NCBI RefSeq assembly: GCF_900105735.1
Contig: NZ_LT629793.1
Coordinates: forward strand, 1,302,001-1,366,000
DNA: 64,000 nt
Direction: 5' to 3'
Source: Pseudomonas yamanorum
GTDB taxonomy: Bacteria; Pseudomonadota; Gammaproteobacteria; Pseudomonadales; Pseudomonadaceae
This document shows positions 8,817-64,000 of the stretch, one piece after another. How positions within the stretch are numbered: position 1 is the stretch's first letter; each line of letters opens with the position of its first letter. Under the pieces are notes generated by a model. It had not been told where the DNA came from and ran no database searches. It saw nothing but the letters and a program-made list of their open reading frames with translations. The position numbers and the translations under genes are program-made.

Positions 8817-8843
8817 ATCCCGGCGCAGTAGCATCGCCGGGAT
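8817..8843 (+). terminator. Hairpin after the M42 peptidase
   Basis: Perfect 9-bp stem ATCCCGGCG/CGCCGGGAT with a 9-base loop, just after the stop codon. The following bases are only weakly T-rich, so it may be a terminator or an mRNA-stabilising hairpin. Confidence 0.5.
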
Positions 8844-55716: not shown

Positions 55717-56943
55717 TCAGTTCAAGACTTCACTCAACGGAATGAAGTTGACCCGATCACCGATCTCCAGCGTCGTGCCTTCCAGCACCTCGACCAAACC
55801 TTCAGCCCACGCCGCACTGCGCAGCACACCCGAGCTCTGGTTGCGATAGATGATCGCCTTGCCCTGCTCAAGCCGCCCGCGCAAATACTCACGGCGATTC
55901 CCCGGCTTGGCCCAGACAAATCCCACCGGGACTTCTATGCGCAATGGCTGCACGTCTTCCACACCCTGGCGGCGCAACAGGTAGGGCCGCGCCAGCAAGG
56001 CAAAGGTCACCAGGGTCGACGCCGGATTACCCGGCAAGCCGATCACCGGTACACCACGGAAATGCCCGAACGTCAGCGGCTTGCCCGGCTTGATCGCCAG
56101 CTTCCACAGCGCCAGCTCGCCCTCTTCCCGCAGCGCAATCCCGAGAAAATCCGCCTCGCCCACCGACACACCGCCAGTGGACAGAATCAGGTCAACCGAG
56201 CCCAATGCACCCAGGCGCTCGCGGGTCTTTTCCAGATCATCCGGCAGGATCCCGGCATCTACCACTTCGCAACCCAGGCGCTCCAGCCAGCTGCACAGCA
56301 CCCGGCGATTACTGTTGTAGATCTGACCGGGACCCAGCGGCAGGCCCGGCTCGATCAACTCGTCGCCGGTGGACAGCACGGCCACGCGGGCGCGTCGCAC
56401 CACCTCCAGCCGATCACGACCCAGTGAAGCCGCCAGGCCCAACTCGATCGGGCCCAGGCGTGTACCTGCTGGCAACACCAACTCGCCCACCGTGGTTTCC
56501 TGGCCTTGGGGACGGATGTTTTGATCCACCTGCAACGCTTCGGTGAAGCTCACCCGCTGATCGGGGTGGACCACTGCGTTTTCCTGCATCTCAACGCAGT
56601 CCGCGCCTTCCGGCACCGGGGCACCGGTGAAGATTCGCGCACAGGTGCCGGCGGCCAAAGGCTCCGGTGCCGTGCCTGCGAAAATGCGCTGGCTGACTAC
56701 CAATGGCTCGCCGGTCCAGTCCGCCAGGCGCAGGGCGTAACCGTCCATGGCGCTGTTGGGCCAGGGCGGCAAGTCCAGGGTAGAGATCAGCGCCTGCGCC
56801 AGCACACGACCATCACACTCGGCCAGCGGCAACGTTTCCTGCTCACGAATCGGCGCGGCTTCAGCCATCGCCAGCAGTTGTTCGAGGGCATCTTCCACCG
56901 GCATCAACGCGCCGGTCTTGCCCGGCTTACCCACGGGATTCAC
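55717..56943 (-). CDS. moeA: Molybdopterin molybdotransferase MoeA
   Basis: Inserts molybdate into adenylylated molybdopterin. The 408-residue protein has [14 protein letters not shown] at the start, [14 protein letters not shown] near residue 185, and [15 protein letters not shown] near residue 245 (MoCF_biosynth substrate loop). It overlaps moaB by 17 bases, so the two are cotranscribed and probably translationally coupled. Confidence 0.95.
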
Positions 56944-57466
56944 AGGGCTCGGCCTGCTTCAAATGCGGAACGAAGTTGCACGGGCGGTGACGGTTATCCA
57001 GTTGCTCGGCGAGAATCCCGTCCCATCCGGTGCGCACCGCGTTGGTGGAGCCCGGCAGGCAGCACACCAGGGTGCCATTGGCCAGGCCGGCCAGGGCGCG
57101 GGACTGCACGGTGGAGGTGCCGATATCGGCCACGGAGATTTGCCGGAACAGTTCGCCGAAACCATCCACCTGTTTATCCAGCAGGCAGCTCACCGCTTCC
57201 GGGGTGCTGTCGCGGCCGGTGAAGCCGGTGCCGCCGGTGATCAACACCACTTGCACCACGTCTTCGGCAATCCAGTGCGCCACTTGCGCACGGATTTTGT
57301 ACAGATCATCTTTAAGCAACACGCGCTCGGCCAGCAGGTGGCCGGCGGCGGTCAGGCGGTCGACGAAGACCTGGCCCGAGGTGTCGGTTTCCAGGGTGCG
57401 GGTGTCACTGACCGTCAATACAGCGATATTCAGGGGTACAAAGGGCGCATCAGCCTTGGCTTTCAT
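56927..57466 (-). CDS. moaB: Molybdenum cofactor biosynthesis protein MoaB
   Basis: A 179-residue MoaB/Mog-type protein that adenylylates molybdopterin before molybdate insertion. [20 protein letters not shown] near residue 95 is the conserved loop, and a Lys/Asp-rich N-terminal part is normal. It is first gene of a moaB-moeA pair and divergent from mobA, with 75 bases between. Confidence 0.95.
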
Positions 57467-57541
57467 GGCTCGGTCCGGTTGTCGAAGGAACAGCCCGATG
57501 TTATATCACAGGCCCCCATTTCACTGCCCGCTGGAGCTGCC

Positions 57542-58144
57542 ATGCCAAGCCATTCCTCCCCACTGCCCTGCTCCGTCCTGTTGCTGGCCGGCGGCCGTGG
57601 CCAGCGCATGGGCGGCCTCGACAAGGGTCTTCTCGACTGGCACGGACAGCCGCTGATTGCGCACCTGCATCGCCTGGTACGGCCTTTGACCGACGACCTG
57701 ATCATCTCCTGCAACCGTAACCAGCCGCAGTACGCGGCCTACGCCGATCAATTGGTCGGCGATGACAGCCCGGACTTCCCGGGGCCACTGGCCGGCATTC
57801 GTGCAGGACTGGCAGTGGCGCAGCATGGGCATCTGCTGGTATTGCCGTGCGATGTGCCGCAGATCGACGCGCGATTGCTCGCCGACCTGCGCAGCACAGC
57901 GCAGCAGAATCCATTGCTGCCGGTGATGGTGCGTCACGGCGATTTCTGGGAGCCTCTGCTCTGCGTCATACCGACGCTGCTGCGCGAGCGGTTCGATGAA
58001 GCCTGGGCAGCCGGCGAGCGCAGCCCGCGCCGAATCATGCAGGCACTGGGGGCCAAAGCCCTGGATTGCCCCGCCGACGACTCACGCTTGGCCAACCTCA
58101 ATACACCTGAGTTGTTGCACCGCCCGCCCAGCGTGTCAGAATGA
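57542..58144 (+). CDS. mobA: Molybdenum cofactor guanylyltransferase MobA
   Basis: Attaches GMP to Mo-molybdopterin to form the bis-MGD cofactor. The 200-residue protein has the nucleotide-binding [20 protein letters not shown] at its start and PCDVPQID near residue 100 with the metal Asp. The ATG follows GGAGCTGCC. An open frame continues 265 codons upstream through the opposite-strand moeA/moaB region, but it is not coding. Functionally one with moaB-moeA. Confidence 0.95.
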
Positions 58145-60105: not shown

Positions 60106-60250
60106 GGCAAAGGGTCCGAGAAGAATCAGGTGCCTATTCTAACAGCGTCGGGACAGTGCAGATCAGCATGGCCAACAACAGGAGCCACCACGGGTGGATG
60201 AGCTACACCCGGATATCGGCTCTTGGCAACACGACCCCATCCTCATGCCC

Positions 60251-61252
60251 CTAGAGCCAGATCTCCAGCTTCCGCTCGGCAAAGACCAGTGGCTGGCCGT
60301 GCTCCAGCAACTGCCGAATGCTCGGCCCAAGCAGGTCTTGCGGCCCATCCAAGGGCGTCGCAGGTGTGGTGTGAAAGCGCACTCGATTAGCGCTGACACG
60401 CTCCAGGATCTGACGGTCCTGGCGCAAGATCACCCGGAACAACCGGCGCAATACCAACCGTTTGAGTAGCCCCGGCAATACCCCGCGCGTCGTGGCAATC
60501 CGGGCAAACAAGCGCACTTGGCCATCGCCATCCGGCGTCATCCAGGCGCTGACCAGCAGGTTAAGTCCGCCGCGCGCATCGCGATATTCGATCTCTGCCA
60601 AACCCGGCAAGCGAAAGCGTCCCATGCTGACGCCACGCTCCCCCTCGAACCAGCGCGAGATCAACCCTGATTGCTTGCCCTCTTCGCTATAGACTGCCTC
60701 GACACCATCTGCGAGGGCGCGCACACGAACACTGAGTTTTTGCCGCTGCCTGTCGTGGCGTATCCACCCGGCATGCACGAAATGCGTGTGAAAACCGTCG
60801 AGAAAATTCTCCGCAGCGTCTTGTAGTGAACACTGCACCTGATCGGTCATCCAGAACGTGTCCAGATCCTGCTGTTGCGGGGCAGGCGCAGTGGGAGGTG
60901 TTTGAGGACGCTCAGGACCAAGACTGACCCATACCAGCCCGTCGGCCTCGCAACTATGCCAGCTATCCAGCAACGGCTTGCTGCAGGTTGCCAGTTTTGT
61001 GCCCGGCACCCGCGTACAACGTCCATCGGCGGCAAATCGCCAACCGTGATAGGGGCATTCGATCTGCCCATCGCGAACCTTGCCTGCGCTCAATGGCGCA
61101 AAGCGATGCGGGCAGCGATCAGGTAAAGCAGCGACGTCCCCACCTTCACCCCGAAACAGCACCAACGGCAGGCCAAATAACTGGCGTGCCAACGGCGCAT
61201 TTCGCAGCTCGTGGCTCAAGGCTACCGGCCACCAGCCGTTTACTTGACTCAT
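60251..61252 (-). CDS. Rieske-type non-haem iron oxygenase
   Basis: A 333-residue oxygenase alpha-subunit-like protein. The Rieske [2Fe-2S] ligands are in CPHRFAPLS (residues ~47-50) and CPYHGW (residues ~67-70). The mononuclear iron site is in NFLDGFHTHFVH near residue 150. It resembles vanillate-demethylase/PaO-like oxygenases. No reductase gene is adjacent, so electrons must come from elsewhere. Its ATG overlaps the GNAT stop by 4 bases (ATGA), making it the last gene of an overlapping operon, where it probably hydroxylates or desaturates the pathway product. Confidence 0.9.
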   Translation of the reverse strand: MSQVNGWWPVALSHELRNAPLARQLFGLPLVLFRGEGGDVAALPDRCPHRFAPLSAGKVRDGQIECPYHGWRFAADGRCTRVPGTKLATCSKPLLDSWHSCEADGLVWVSLGPERPQTPPTAPAPQQQDLDTFWMTDQVQCSLQDAAENFLDGFHTHFVHAGWIRHDRQRQKLSVRVRALADGVEAVYSEEGKQSGLISRWFEGERGVSMGRFRLPGLAEIEYRDARGGLNLLVSAWMTPDGDGQVRLFARIATTRGVLPGLLKRLVLRRLFRVILRQDRQILERVSANRVRFHTTPATPLDGPQDLLGPSIRQLLEHGQPLVFAERKLEIWL

Positions 61253-62388
61253 AGTTTTAACTTACGCATCAAGGGCACACCGATGCCATGCAACAGGTGG
61301 CTCAGGACATGCCACACCCACCTGCGACCCCAGGACAAATGGGCGACATGGATGAGGCTGTACTCGATCTGCGGCTGGCCCCCGCGCAAGCGTTTGAACT
61401 CGGCAGCGCCCGAGCTGAAGTTCAACACCACGCCGCGCTCAACCGCCTCTTGCAAGCACAACCGCGTGAGTTGGCGATACAACCCGGCCCGCTGCGGCAG
61501 GGCGGTGTCGTAACCCACTATCGGGGTGCTGAGCGTCCCAGCGTTGGCAAACCAGCCAAGGGCACCGTCAATGCGCCCCTCAGCATTGCGTAAAGCCCGC
61601 ATCTCCAACCAACCTTCACGTTGGCCGCGCTGCATCCACTGGGCGCTATAGTGCGGGTTCAGCCTGCAATACTTGTTCAGGTAAAGCAGGTTATAAAGAT
61701 GCTCGATGCGTTGAAAGTCAGCGTCATCCAGCGCCGCGCCCGGCACCACTTCATAGGGGCTGCGGCGCAGCAACGTGGCGTCCAGCCGAGTGTTGTGGTG
61801 CTTAAGAAATGAAGCCTGCGCCCCAGCCCGTCCATCGAACAGATAGACCTGTCGGCTGGGAATACTCAGGTAGCCAAGGCTTTCCAGATTCAGGCGTAGC
61901 TCCCGATTGCTGAAGTCATTCAGAGAGCGAAAACCAAACCCATGATCGGGAAACGTTCGACGCAACAAGGCGGTGATCGCCGACAGTTCGGTGATGTCCC
62001 AGTCGCCTGGGTAGAGGTTGGTGGACAGCAGCCAGTTGTTGACCTGCACCAGTTTGTCGACATTGGCCCGGCGCAGCAGATGGTTCACGCCCTGAGTCAG
62101 GATCTTAAGCGGCCAAGTCAGCCAGGGCCGGCCAAGGCGTTTGATCTCTTCACGGGCGTAGCCGCTATAAGCAGTTTGAGGCGACACCACGTAGCAGTTG
62201 TCATCCGGCTCAAGGCCCTCGGTGATACTGACGGGAAACTGCTGCGTCCCTGTGTCGAGCAGCGCCATGCGGGTAATGACGTTGCCGATCAGCGCGCCGC
62301 CGGCACACGTACGCACATAGCGCCGGGCGAGGCTGTCGTGGGCGCGGACGGGCTCACTGAGCAGTTGCTCTTCGAGTAGCAATCTCAT
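61249..62388 (-). CDS. FemAB/CelD-type GNAT acyltransferase
   Basis: A 379-residue protein of the GNAT superfamily in the FemAB/CelD (Acetyltransf_6) manner. VLNFSSGAAEFKRLRGG near residue 325 is the tell-tale late block (fold-specific Gly/Lys), and IPSRQVYLFDGRA with LRLNLESLGYLSIPS lie earlier. It ends with a short hydrophobic/basic tail. ATG overlaps the stop of the ATP-grasp gene (ATGA). A role in joining an acyl or aminoacyl group to the ATP-grasp product is inferred. Confidence 0.78.
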   Translation of the reverse strand: MRLLLEEQLLSEPVRAHDSLARRYVRTCAGGALIGNVITRMALLDTGTQQFPVSITEGLEPDDNCYVVSPQTAYSGYAREEIKRLGRPWLTWPLKILTQGVNHLLRRANVDKLVQVNNWLLSTNLYPGDWDITELSAITALLRRTFPDHGFGFRSLNDFSNRELRLNLESLGYLSIPSRQVYLFDGRAGAQASFLKHHNTRLDATLLRRSPYEVVPGAALDDADFQRIEHLYNLLYLNKYCRLNPHYSAQWMQRGQREGWLEMRALRNAEGRIDGALGWFANAGTLSTPIVGYDTALPQRAGLYRQLTRLCLQEAVERGVVLNFSSGAAEFKRLRGGQPQIEYSLIHVAHLSWGRRWVWHVLSHLLHGIGVPLMRKLKL

Positions 62389-63533
62389 GGCAGGTCCTCG
62401 CTCAACGGCTGGCCGTTCCACTCGATGTCTGCGGTGGACGCGGCCAGCAGGCCGCAACGCCGGGAAGCGGCGCGCGCGATAATTTCAGCCAGGCTCAGCA
62501 CTTGCGCGGTCAGCGGCCAGAAATCACCTTTGCGGGTAATCACATCGCGGGCATCGGCATAGTCACGCCAGAACCCCGCGTTCAACACCTGCTTTGGCGC
62601 CACCAGCAGGAGCATCGCCAGCGCAATCATCCGGGGTTCGCAGGTCGGCTCAAGCACGCCGCTGCCACTCAGGCTGGCGACCAGTTGCCTGCGCTGATTA
62701 TCGAACAGATGCACACCACTGGTGGCTCGTGGGTTGCACTCCAACACATGAAAATGTCCAGCCGTATCTTCAATAAAGTCGAAACCCACCTGCCCGGTGT
62801 AGCCAGTTTCGCGACCGAATTGTTCGAGGAACTGGCGCACCGGCGCCGGTGCGCAAGGCTCGAAATAAATCCCCGACCCACGTCCCACCCGGTAGCGCGG
62901 GTGGTAGCAGCTATGGGCGCGCAACTCACCGTCGATCATGACGCTGAAACTGCAATATTCACGGCCCTCGATAAACCGCTGCGCCACCCAAGGCGCCGCT
63001 TCACTGGGCTGTACCTTTGCCAGTTGCCTGACTGTCGGGCGGATCAACGTCTGGGAGGCAAAGCGCGAATATGCCGGCTTGAACACCCACTGGCTCGCTT
63101 CACACGTCAATGCCTGTACCTCCAGGCGATCAGTCAACAGGCGGGTTTCAGGAGCCGCCAACGCCCAGCCCGCCGTCATGGCTGCGAAACGACCCTTGTG
63201 ATGCAAGCGATGCAGCAAGGCAAAATCGCCGGTCAACACCCTGCAAAGCGGCGCCAGGCGTTCGAGACCGTGGGCCAGGTAAAACACTTCCTCGCAGGTG
63301 GGCAGCAGTAAATCGATGCGCTGCGCCTGGATCACCTGTGCCAATGCCGTGATCCAGGCTGCTGGATTTTGTCGAGGTTCCGGCAGGCGTACAAAGTGCT
63401 GCACCGAACAACTGAAACGGCTCAGCGGCTGGCCCAAGGAATCCCCCACGCTGACCGTCCAGCCCGCCTCATCAAAGGCCCGCGCCCATTCCAGGCAGGC
63501 TGGGGCGCGCGCGCCAAGAATCAGTACATGCAT
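62385..63533 (-). CDS. ATP-grasp ligase
   Basis: A 382-residue carboxylate-amine/thiol ligase-type protein. The pre-ATP-grasp Rossmann start is MHVLILGARAPACLEWARAF, ATP contacts are in WVFKPAYSRFASQ near residue 165, and the metal site is FHVLECNPRATSGVH near residue 270. It overlaps the upstream adenylate-forming gene by 13 bases and the downstream GNAT by 4. The likely reaction is formation of an amide or peptide bond on a small carboxylic acid; the substrates are unknown. Confidence 0.88.
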   Translation of the reverse strand: MHVLILGARAPACLEWARAFDEAGWTVSVGDSLGQPLSRFSCSVQHFVRLPEPRQNPAAWITALAQVIQAQRIDLLLPTCEEVFYLAHGLERLAPLCRVLTGDFALLHRLHHKGRFAAMTAGWALAAPETRLLTDRLEVQALTCEASQWVFKPAYSRFASQTLIRPTVRQLAKVQPSEAAPWVAQRFIEGREYCSFSVMIDGELRAHSCYHPRYRVGRGSGIYFEPCAPAPVRQFLEQFGRETGYTGQVGFDFIEDTAGHFHVLECNPRATSGVHLFDNQRRQLVASLSGSGVLEPTCEPRMIALAMLLLVAPKQVLNAGFWRDYADARDVITRKGDFWPLTAQVLSLAEIIARAASRRCGLLAASTADIEWNGQPLSEDLP

Positions 63534-64000
63534 GGCATACCCTCGGGCAGTTGCAGCAGTTTCAGGCGGCGGCGCTTGGCATACGCCGGCGGCGGCTGCC
63601 ACTGGCCAAAGCTCAATGCGGGAAGTTGCAGCCCCTGTTGGCAGCACAATGCGTGAATGCTCTGCATCAAGGCCTGGCACAGGTCGGCGTAGTTGGCAGC
63701 AGATTGCACGTTGATCTGCCAGTGCAAGCCCTGCTGATGGATTTCATACTCCTGCAAGCACTCGCCATGCATCAGTAAGGTGCGCCGCAGCACATCCGGA
63801 TAGAGCGCTCGCAATTGAACACCGCTCAAGTCGGGTAGCCAAAGAATGTCATCCACACGGCCCTCGACGGCGGCAATCGCACGCTCGACACGCCCACAAG
63901 CGCAAGGCGCCTGGGCAACCCGGAGAACGTCGTTGAGACGGTAACGCACGATCAACTGGGTTCGTCGGGAGAAGTCGGTGATGATCGGCTGAAAACGTGT
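63521..64000 (-). CDS. PaaK/coenzyme F390 synthetase-like adenylate-forming enzyme (partial)
   Basis: The 3' end of a gene that continues past the right edge, so the true start is not in the window. About 160 codons are visible. The block TRFQPIITDFSRRTQLIVRY followed by RLNDVL is the typical late core of PaaK/CapK/F390-synthetase proteins (acyl-adenylate, then CoA thioester or amide). Cys-rich CACGRVERAIAAVEGRVDDIL is the matching hinge region. It is upstream in an overlapping operon with ATP-grasp, GNAT and Rieske genes. Confidence 0.8.
   Translation of the reverse strand, partial: TRFQPIITDFSRRTQLIVRYRLNDVLRVAQAPCACGRVERAIAAVEGRVDDILWLPDLSGVQLRALYPDVLRRTLLMHGECLQEYEIHQQGLHWQINVQSAANYADLCQALMQSIHALCCQQGLQLPALSFGQWQPPPAYAKRRRLKLLQLPEGMPCMY

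Follow-up and report, generated by a model that had tools for sequence, protein, structure and literature searches.

A four-enzyme core with exchangeable tailoring genes in an operon shared by Pseudomonas yamanorum and other bacteria

The long-chain olefin/β-lactone pathway OleABCD clusters genes for a thiolase-fold ketosynthase, an OleD-family reductase and an ATP-dependent carboxylate activator. Enzymes of the same three kinds are encoded together in an operon of Pseudomonas yamanorum that lies partly in a 64,000-nucleotide stretch, hereafter the window (G000:C1:1302001-1366000, from a single-contig genome of 7.09 Mb), and extends past its right edge. This operon also encodes an enzyme whose predicted fold resembles FemX, FemA, MprF and L-PGS, which are aminoacyl-tRNA-dependent enzymes. 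We found that the operon is a conserved biosynthetic unit that is not specific to Pseudomonas: its first four genes form a core that recurs from Fusobacterium to Escherichia coli, accompanied by differing sets of tailoring genes.

The operon and its conservation

The operon comprises seven genes, A-B-C-D-E-F-G, on the minus strand from window position 60251 to ~67746. Coordinates beyond the edge come from a 20 kb record fetched around it (L002; window position = L002 position + 59000).

66727-67746 (L002:7727-8746), minus strand, beyond the window edge: A, ketosynthase III, 339 amino acids (aa); PF08545 + PF08541
65720-66727 (L002:6720-7727), minus strand, beyond the window edge: B, OleD-like extended short-chain dehydrogenase/reductase (SDR), 335 aa; OleD models
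64869-65723 (L002:5869-6723), minus strand, beyond the window edge: C, metallo-β-lactamase (MBL)-fold hydrolase, 284 aa; PF00753
63521-64879 (L002:4521-5879; 63521..64000 inside the window), minus strand: D, F390-synthetase-related adenylate-forming enzyme, 452 aa; TIGR02304
62385..63533, minus strand: E, ATP-grasp ligase, 382 aa; PRK06849 and predicted fold
61249..62388, minus strand: F, FemX/MprF-type tandem-GNAT transferase, 379 aa; predicted fold
60251..61252, minus strand: G, Rieske non-haem iron oxygenase, 333 aa; PF00355 + PF19112 (VanA_C)

Neighbouring genes overlap at all six junctions, by 4 bases at G/F and at F/E (ATGA at both) and by 13 at E/D; beyond the edge the overlaps are ~11 bases (C-D), 4 (B-C, ATGA) and 1 (A-B, TGATG). 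The first-pass annotation had described four leftward genes with overlaps of 13, 4 and 4 bases and ATGA twice, had taken them for a single functional unit and had allowed for more genes past the right edge. Their coordinates and overlaps were reproduced, and retrieval of the flank yielded C, B and A in the same orientation. The four genes are thus real, but the set is seven: they represent one core gene (D) and the tailoring cassette (E-F-G), and the defining A-B-C-D core lies mostly outside the window.

All loci compared, except the source locus itself, were picked directly or indirectly through D. When the genome collection was scanned with D, 24 loci were recovered, and 21 of them, from Pseudomonas and a Hydrogenophilales metagenome-assembled genome, carry the complete set of seven in unchanged order at 54-89% identity. 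The gene order suggested for a search across Pseudomonas therefore recurs, which agrees with the early view of one functional unit, and this conservation of set and order rules out a chance neighbourhood. The three exceptions are a locus cut by a contig end inside G (L003), one without G (L008) and a decayed one (L025). The last, in Candidatus Dactylopiibacterium carminicum (L025:7218-12099), has a stop inside A and a shortened E, and F and G are gone. Flanking genes vary among the more distant species, while near relatives have some in common.

A wider set of 54 loci, the source locus included, draws in addition on 15 of the 58 plasmid-collection records with D relatives (H1-H3, H8-H12, H14, H16, H18, H19, H21, H22, H24) and on D relatives in further genomes; records below H26 were left out as distant (<30% identity, mostly named phenylacetate-CoA ligases). 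Also left out were L031 (which duplicates the E. coli locus L042), L001, the short pieces L043-L052, and L057. L024 and L056 lie at zero distance in the D tree and are probably one species, so that the 54 contain at least one double. The whole core is present in 53 of the 54, which, as the loci were picked through D, shows that A, B and C accompany D rather than how common the core is. The lone exception, L096, matches D at just 93.6 bits, below the TIGR02304 cut-off of 251.9; the D proteins of L093-L095 also fall below it (155-190 bits), yet there the core is still present. Genes A-G occur together in 29 loci, A-D alone in 14, and A-F, A-E and A-E plus G in three each; one locus has A-D plus F and one has D alone. 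Of the 53 cores, 52 are ordered A-B-C-D; that of Fusobacterium is B-C-D-A. Other frames stand between the core genes in Pseudomonas sp. Leaf58, on whose megaplasmid (L033) the four core genes, together with a split E, are spread over ~13 kb amid hypothetical genes.

The core spans Pseudomonadota, Bacillota and Fusobacteriota. Of 298 Pseudomonas genomes, 18 have a TIGR02304 score above the cut-off, as do 7 of 398 Pseudomonadota genomes, the source genome being counted in both, and a search for near-identical DNA placed the E. coli core in 672 of 5426 complete genomes, at a single place in each. The core proteins have correlated pairwise distances (rho 0.82-0.91 across 44 loci; 0.36-0.69 for distant pairs), and distant pairs show no correlation for E versus F (-0.14) or E versus G (-0.02). 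These correlations ignore shared ancestry, and we take the co-inheritance of the core proteins as supporting evidence only. The 44 loci, which also supplied the motif alignments, leave out L001, the short pieces L043-L052, and L057.

Enzyme families of the core and the cassette

A has both β-ketoacyl-acyl carrier protein synthase III (KAS III) domains, PF08545 and PF08541, above cut-off. Against PRK07204/NF005541 (beta-ketoacyl-ACP synthase III) it scores 393.2 bits, just below the cut-off of 402; its counterpart in Paenibacillus passes (424.9), and that in E. coli reaches 333.4. The closest solved chains are 4v2p, a 'ketosynthase' that we take to be MxnB (214 bits), and CorB (206 bits), followed by a FabH (197 bits). 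Cys-His-Asn triad motifs occur in 44 of 44 rows, one of which, L025, is the copy with a stop. Judged by this triad and both domains, A is a ketosynthase III in the broad sense. Passages of PMC4578411 describe OleA E117 and PpyS E105 as a catalytic glutamate contributed by the partner subunit, with valine in MxnB and CorB (V94/E105 equivalence). Located through the 4v2p and CorB alignments and that equivalence (PMC4578411, same passages), the corresponding position in A is occupied by M, L or I in all 53 proteins, and by that feature A is therefore not of the OleA type. Malonyl-type condensation, or an activated β-keto partner as proposed for MxnB, fits A better.

For B, two OleD models score best (177.9 and 169.9 bits, against cut-offs of 580), followed by HpnA at 87 bits. 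The same ranking holds in E. coli (OleD 154, HpnA 101 bits) and Paenibacillus (241 and 122 bits), and solved structures gave weak matches to other SDRs. By these scores B is related to the OleD 2-alkyl-3-oxoalkanoate reductase, yet is no member of that family. C matches PF00753 and keeps the HxHxDH metal motif in 44 of 44 rows. Its matches to the N-acyl homoserine lactone (AHL) lactonase AttM (64.1 bits, cut-off 390) and to 4-pyridoxolactonase (51 bits) are far under the cut-offs, that of the AHL lactonase equivalog included; its closest solved structures are lactonases. D falls within TIGR02304 (F390-synthetase-related; 394.5 bits, cut-off 251.9); among solved structures its sequence weakly matches a phenylacetate-CoA ligase. 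The motifs [ST]GTSG, Yxx[ST]EG and GRxD[DE] occur in 44 of 44 D rows, CxCG is missing in 2 of 44, and RYRLND is variable.

E belongs to PRK06849 ('hypothetical protein'; 422.7 bits, cut-off 406). A sequence comparison returned no solved relative, and fold prediction revealed an ATP-grasp fold. Since PurK-type carboxylases have the ATP-grasp fold too, E could also act as a carboxylase. F had neither a family-model match nor a convincing solved relative by sequence, and Acetyltransf_6 matches 19 of the 44 aligned F sequences; the predicted fold is a tandem GNAT along the whole length. In the fold comparison the best 15 rows by Z are all chains of Sbb17, Sba18, FemX, FemA, MprF or L-PGS, and the titles of the Sba18 and Sbb17 entries name aminoacyl-tRNA-dependent enzymes. 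On this fold evidence, aminoacyl-tRNA is probably the donor of F. G matches PF00355 and PF19112 (VanA_C) above cut-off, and its closest solved chain is DdmC (88 bits), SxtT also being matched. Rieske ligands of the DRCPH and CPYHGW types and a DxxHxxxxH iron site were found in 27 of 28 rows, the remaining one (L003) ending at the contig end. The enzyme classes assigned to D-G at first pass were borne out by the TIGR02304 score of D, the ATP-grasp fold of E, the FemX-like fold of F and the Rieske domain of G.

That annotation had also seen no reductase, carrier protein or exporter inside the window. Inspection by eye of the operon and the genes directly around it likewise revealed neither a carrier protein nor an exporter, but the operon does contain a reductase, the OleD-like B, which is not a Rieske reductase. 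A Rieske reductase or ferredoxin partner for G was not seen by eye in or beside the operon and was not sought elsewhere in the genome. No regulator or receptor belonging to the operon was seen by eye. Rfam had no match in L002 900-10500, and promoter and terminator scans at the locus gave counts under the shuffled mean. A defence function was considered and set aside, none of the seven proteins having a PADLOC match at E up to 1e-5.

Alternative cassettes and the genomic site

The E-F-G cassette (type I) also occurs in Paraburkholderia and, with E reversed, in Shinella, Rhizobium and Roseateles records; Paenibacillus has it without G. A second cassette (type II), consisting of PAP2, FA_hydroxylase and FA_desaturase genes, accompanies the core in E. 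coli (L042), in Burkholderia stagnalis (L034) and in three genomes of another family (L087-L089); it is also present in the three Pseudomonas genomes with a high-scoring D for which more of the flanks was retrieved (L053-L055). L090, from a further genome of the family of L087-L089, contains the core but no type II genes within 11.9 kb. In E. coli UPEC 26-1 (L042:9001-15882) the core and the type II genes lie between narI and purU, adjoining tRNA-Tyr genes; no paper on this cluster was found in the open-licence literature. L043-L047 and L053-L055 represent a second, E. coli-like lineage in Pseudomonas, with D at ~580-603 bits against TIGR02304 and with PAP2 and fatty-acid hydroxylase genes.

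Other hosts have further partners. A sulfotransferase adjoins the core in Ketogulonicigenium and two Paracoccus (L028, L029, L036), and Rhizobium NIBRBAC (L040) has a DUF3419 protein together with an F homologue. Just upstream of B-C-D-A in Fusobacterium vincentii (L041:4267-11210) lie genes for another SDR and for a Glyco_transf_21 protein, a family that we take to be that of ceramide glucosyltransferases (GT21); against the HpnI model this protein scores 48.5 bits (cut-off 310). The arrangement suggests a glycolipid. That most of the alternative cassettes are of lipid-modifying kinds is our main reason, an indirect one, for reading the core as lipid-building.

The site of the P. yamanorum copy was compared with five genomes (G059, G095, G048, G017, G119) picked among those whose amt, the ammonium transporter gene located 98 bases upstream of the operon, is 95-99% identical. 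In these relatives 1.8-2.0 kb separate amt from the glutaredoxin-like gene found after the operon in P. yamanorum, with none of A-G between them. A Na/H exchanger with a TrkA-N domain fills the place of the operon in all five; it is exemplified by a 577-aa protein (L117:1242-2975) that is 89-96% identical in the other four and whose best match in P. yamanorum is 38% identical. In blastn comparisons of L002 with L117, L118 and L119 (from G059, G095 and G048) similarity ends at L002 1152-1160 and restarts at 8839-8842, so that both breaks coincide with the operon edges.

60152..60160: left synteny break, beside the operon
L002 8839-8842: right synteny break, outside the window, at the amt stop

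The operon was probably gained here as a block: its scattered presence in Pseudomonas, considered without a tree, favours gain over loss elsewhere. A foreign base composition was ruled out, the operon not differing from its surroundings. The two edge stretches (~260 bases each) have no direct repeat longer than 8 bases in common, and for this reason we propose no mobile element. Membership of amt in the operon was rejected, as a close amt is present in 130 of 149 Pseudomonas genomes and stands without the operon in the five relatives. Left of the operon, at 55717-58144, frames resembling the molybdenum-cofactor genes MoeA, MoaB and MobA were noticed by eye.

Proposed pathway and comparison with described systems

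We propose, with a probability of about one half, that A-D make and activate a long-chain (fatty, probably 3-hydroxy) acid and that E-F-G build its head, the product most likely being an aminoacylated, oxidised lipid or a lipo-amino acid. Motifs and folds support the enzyme classes; substrates, step order, use of tRNA and the product are inferred. A would load an acyl group onto its cysteine and condense it with a malonyl or β-ketoacyl thioester, after which B would reduce the 3-keto group. C may be the metal hydrolase that releases the acid from a carrier, or may open a lactone, and D would convert the carboxylate to an acyl-adenylate. E, acting in the manner of an amino-acid ligase, would join a carboxylate and an amine with ATP, F would use aminoacyl-tRNA to attach an amino acid to the product, in the way of FemX and MprF, and G would oxidise one C-H bond. 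The acylated amino acid envisaged at first pass is a plausible product, although the cassettes of other hosts point to lipid.

Three competing readings were weighed. A branched (mycolate-like) acid, a β-lactone or an olefin would suit the closeness of B to OleD, seen in E. coli and Paenibacillus as well, and the family of D, an ATP-dependent carboxylate activator; 4v2p and CorB, the closest solved relatives of A, are moreover described in passages of PMC4578411 as ketosynthases that join two acyl chains. The glutamate of OleA and PpyS is, however, replaced by M, L or I in every A protein and by V in MxnB and CorB (PMC4578411, same passages), and head-to-head condensation, as by OleA, was downgraded as first choice because this residue is missing. 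B attains only 178 of the 580 bits required for OleD. D, being PaaK/F390-like, and C, an MBL protein, differ in kind from OleC and OleB, and a product of this sort seems to us quite improbable.

For F, an ordinary acyl-CoA-dependent N-acyltransferase of the BioF2 kind would make an N-acyl amino acid without tRNA; since its 15 best fold rows all belong to the Sbb17, Sba18, FemX, FemA, MprF or L-PGS group, we regard this as rather unlikely. Somewhat harder to credit is a secreted low-molecular compound (a metallophore, antibiotic, plant-active compound or signal) with a short acyl part, the lactonase-like C forming or opening a lactone. This idea lies near the acylated amino acid of the first-pass annotation. 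It would agree with the closeness of C to AHL lactonases and with the patchy spread of the operon (the 18 of 298 Pseudomonas genomes above the D cut-off), several carriers among the 24 loci presumably being plant-associated Pseudomonas. An exporter, receptor or regulator was, however, not seen by eye in the operon, the flanks are unconserved among distant species, and the cassettes found elsewhere are membrane-lipid enzymes, although TetR or MerR regulators adjoin the core in some other hosts.

Read most broadly, A-B-C-D might be an undescribed lipid-building chassis of at least three phyla and about one-eighth of E. coli, on which swappable cassettes give lipids with different head groups: amino acids from aminoacyl-tRNA in one branch, and hydroxylation, desaturation, sulfation or glycosylation in others. 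We offer this broader view tentatively, at somewhat less than even odds. A conserved four-enzyme core with exchangeable cassettes, present in hosts as different as Fusobacterium, E. coli and many Pseudomonas, marks a gap in bacterial lipid or natural-product chemistry that can be tested directly, and the set of KAS III, OleD-like, MBL and F390-related proteins can serve as a search rule. The NCBIfam models for the A, D and E families name no pathway, so a single experiment would name enzymes in many genomes. A lipid acceptor and an aminoacyl-tRNA donor, if F does use them, would make this enzyme a soluble equivalent of MprF.

No published account of this gene set was found in open-licence PubMed Central (PMC) papers, an absence that is weak given that scope. 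The early remark that no named Pseudomonas pathway has this set holds to that extent, but the core is not confined to Pseudomonas. Passages of PMC2922099 describe peptide-ligase operons that also include ATP-grasp and Rieske genes, but in a different set. Those of PMC10849742, PMC9823363, PMC5467263 and PMC5501837 contain no more than a mention of a gene for an adenylate-forming enzyme or F390 synthetase; in a table passage of PMC9823363, a transposon screen of Pseudomonas syringae pv. actinidiae has a hit in a 'Coenzyme F390 synthetase' gene.

Compared with OleABCD, the operon has an A without the OleA/PpyS glutamate, a D of the PaaK/F390 kind, an MBL hydrolase as C, and extra tailoring genes. 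The α-pyrone ketosynthases MxnB and CorB are the closest solved structures to A and have, like it, a hydrophobic residue at the PpyS E105 position; the operon, however, includes no polyketide synthase and would reduce and activate its product rather than release a pyrone. E is 10-17% identical to the ATP-grasp enzymes PylC, GAR synthetase, PurK and the L-amino-acid ligases, and has its own NCBIfam model, NF005315, which states no function. F is 8-15% identical to FemX/FemA, MprF and Sbb17/Sba18 and is devoid of the MprF membrane domain. G resembles DdmC and SxtT in its Rieske plus VanA_C architecture and iron ligands, but the match covers about the first half of G only and the operon holds no reductase partner. 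In the E. coli narI-purU cluster the same A-B-C-D core is combined with PAP2, fatty-acid hydroxylase and desaturase in place of E-F-G. It is credible that the operon encodes a pathway, undescribed as far as searched, that is built from known kinds of enzyme; what is new about it is the core, with cassettes that can be exchanged.

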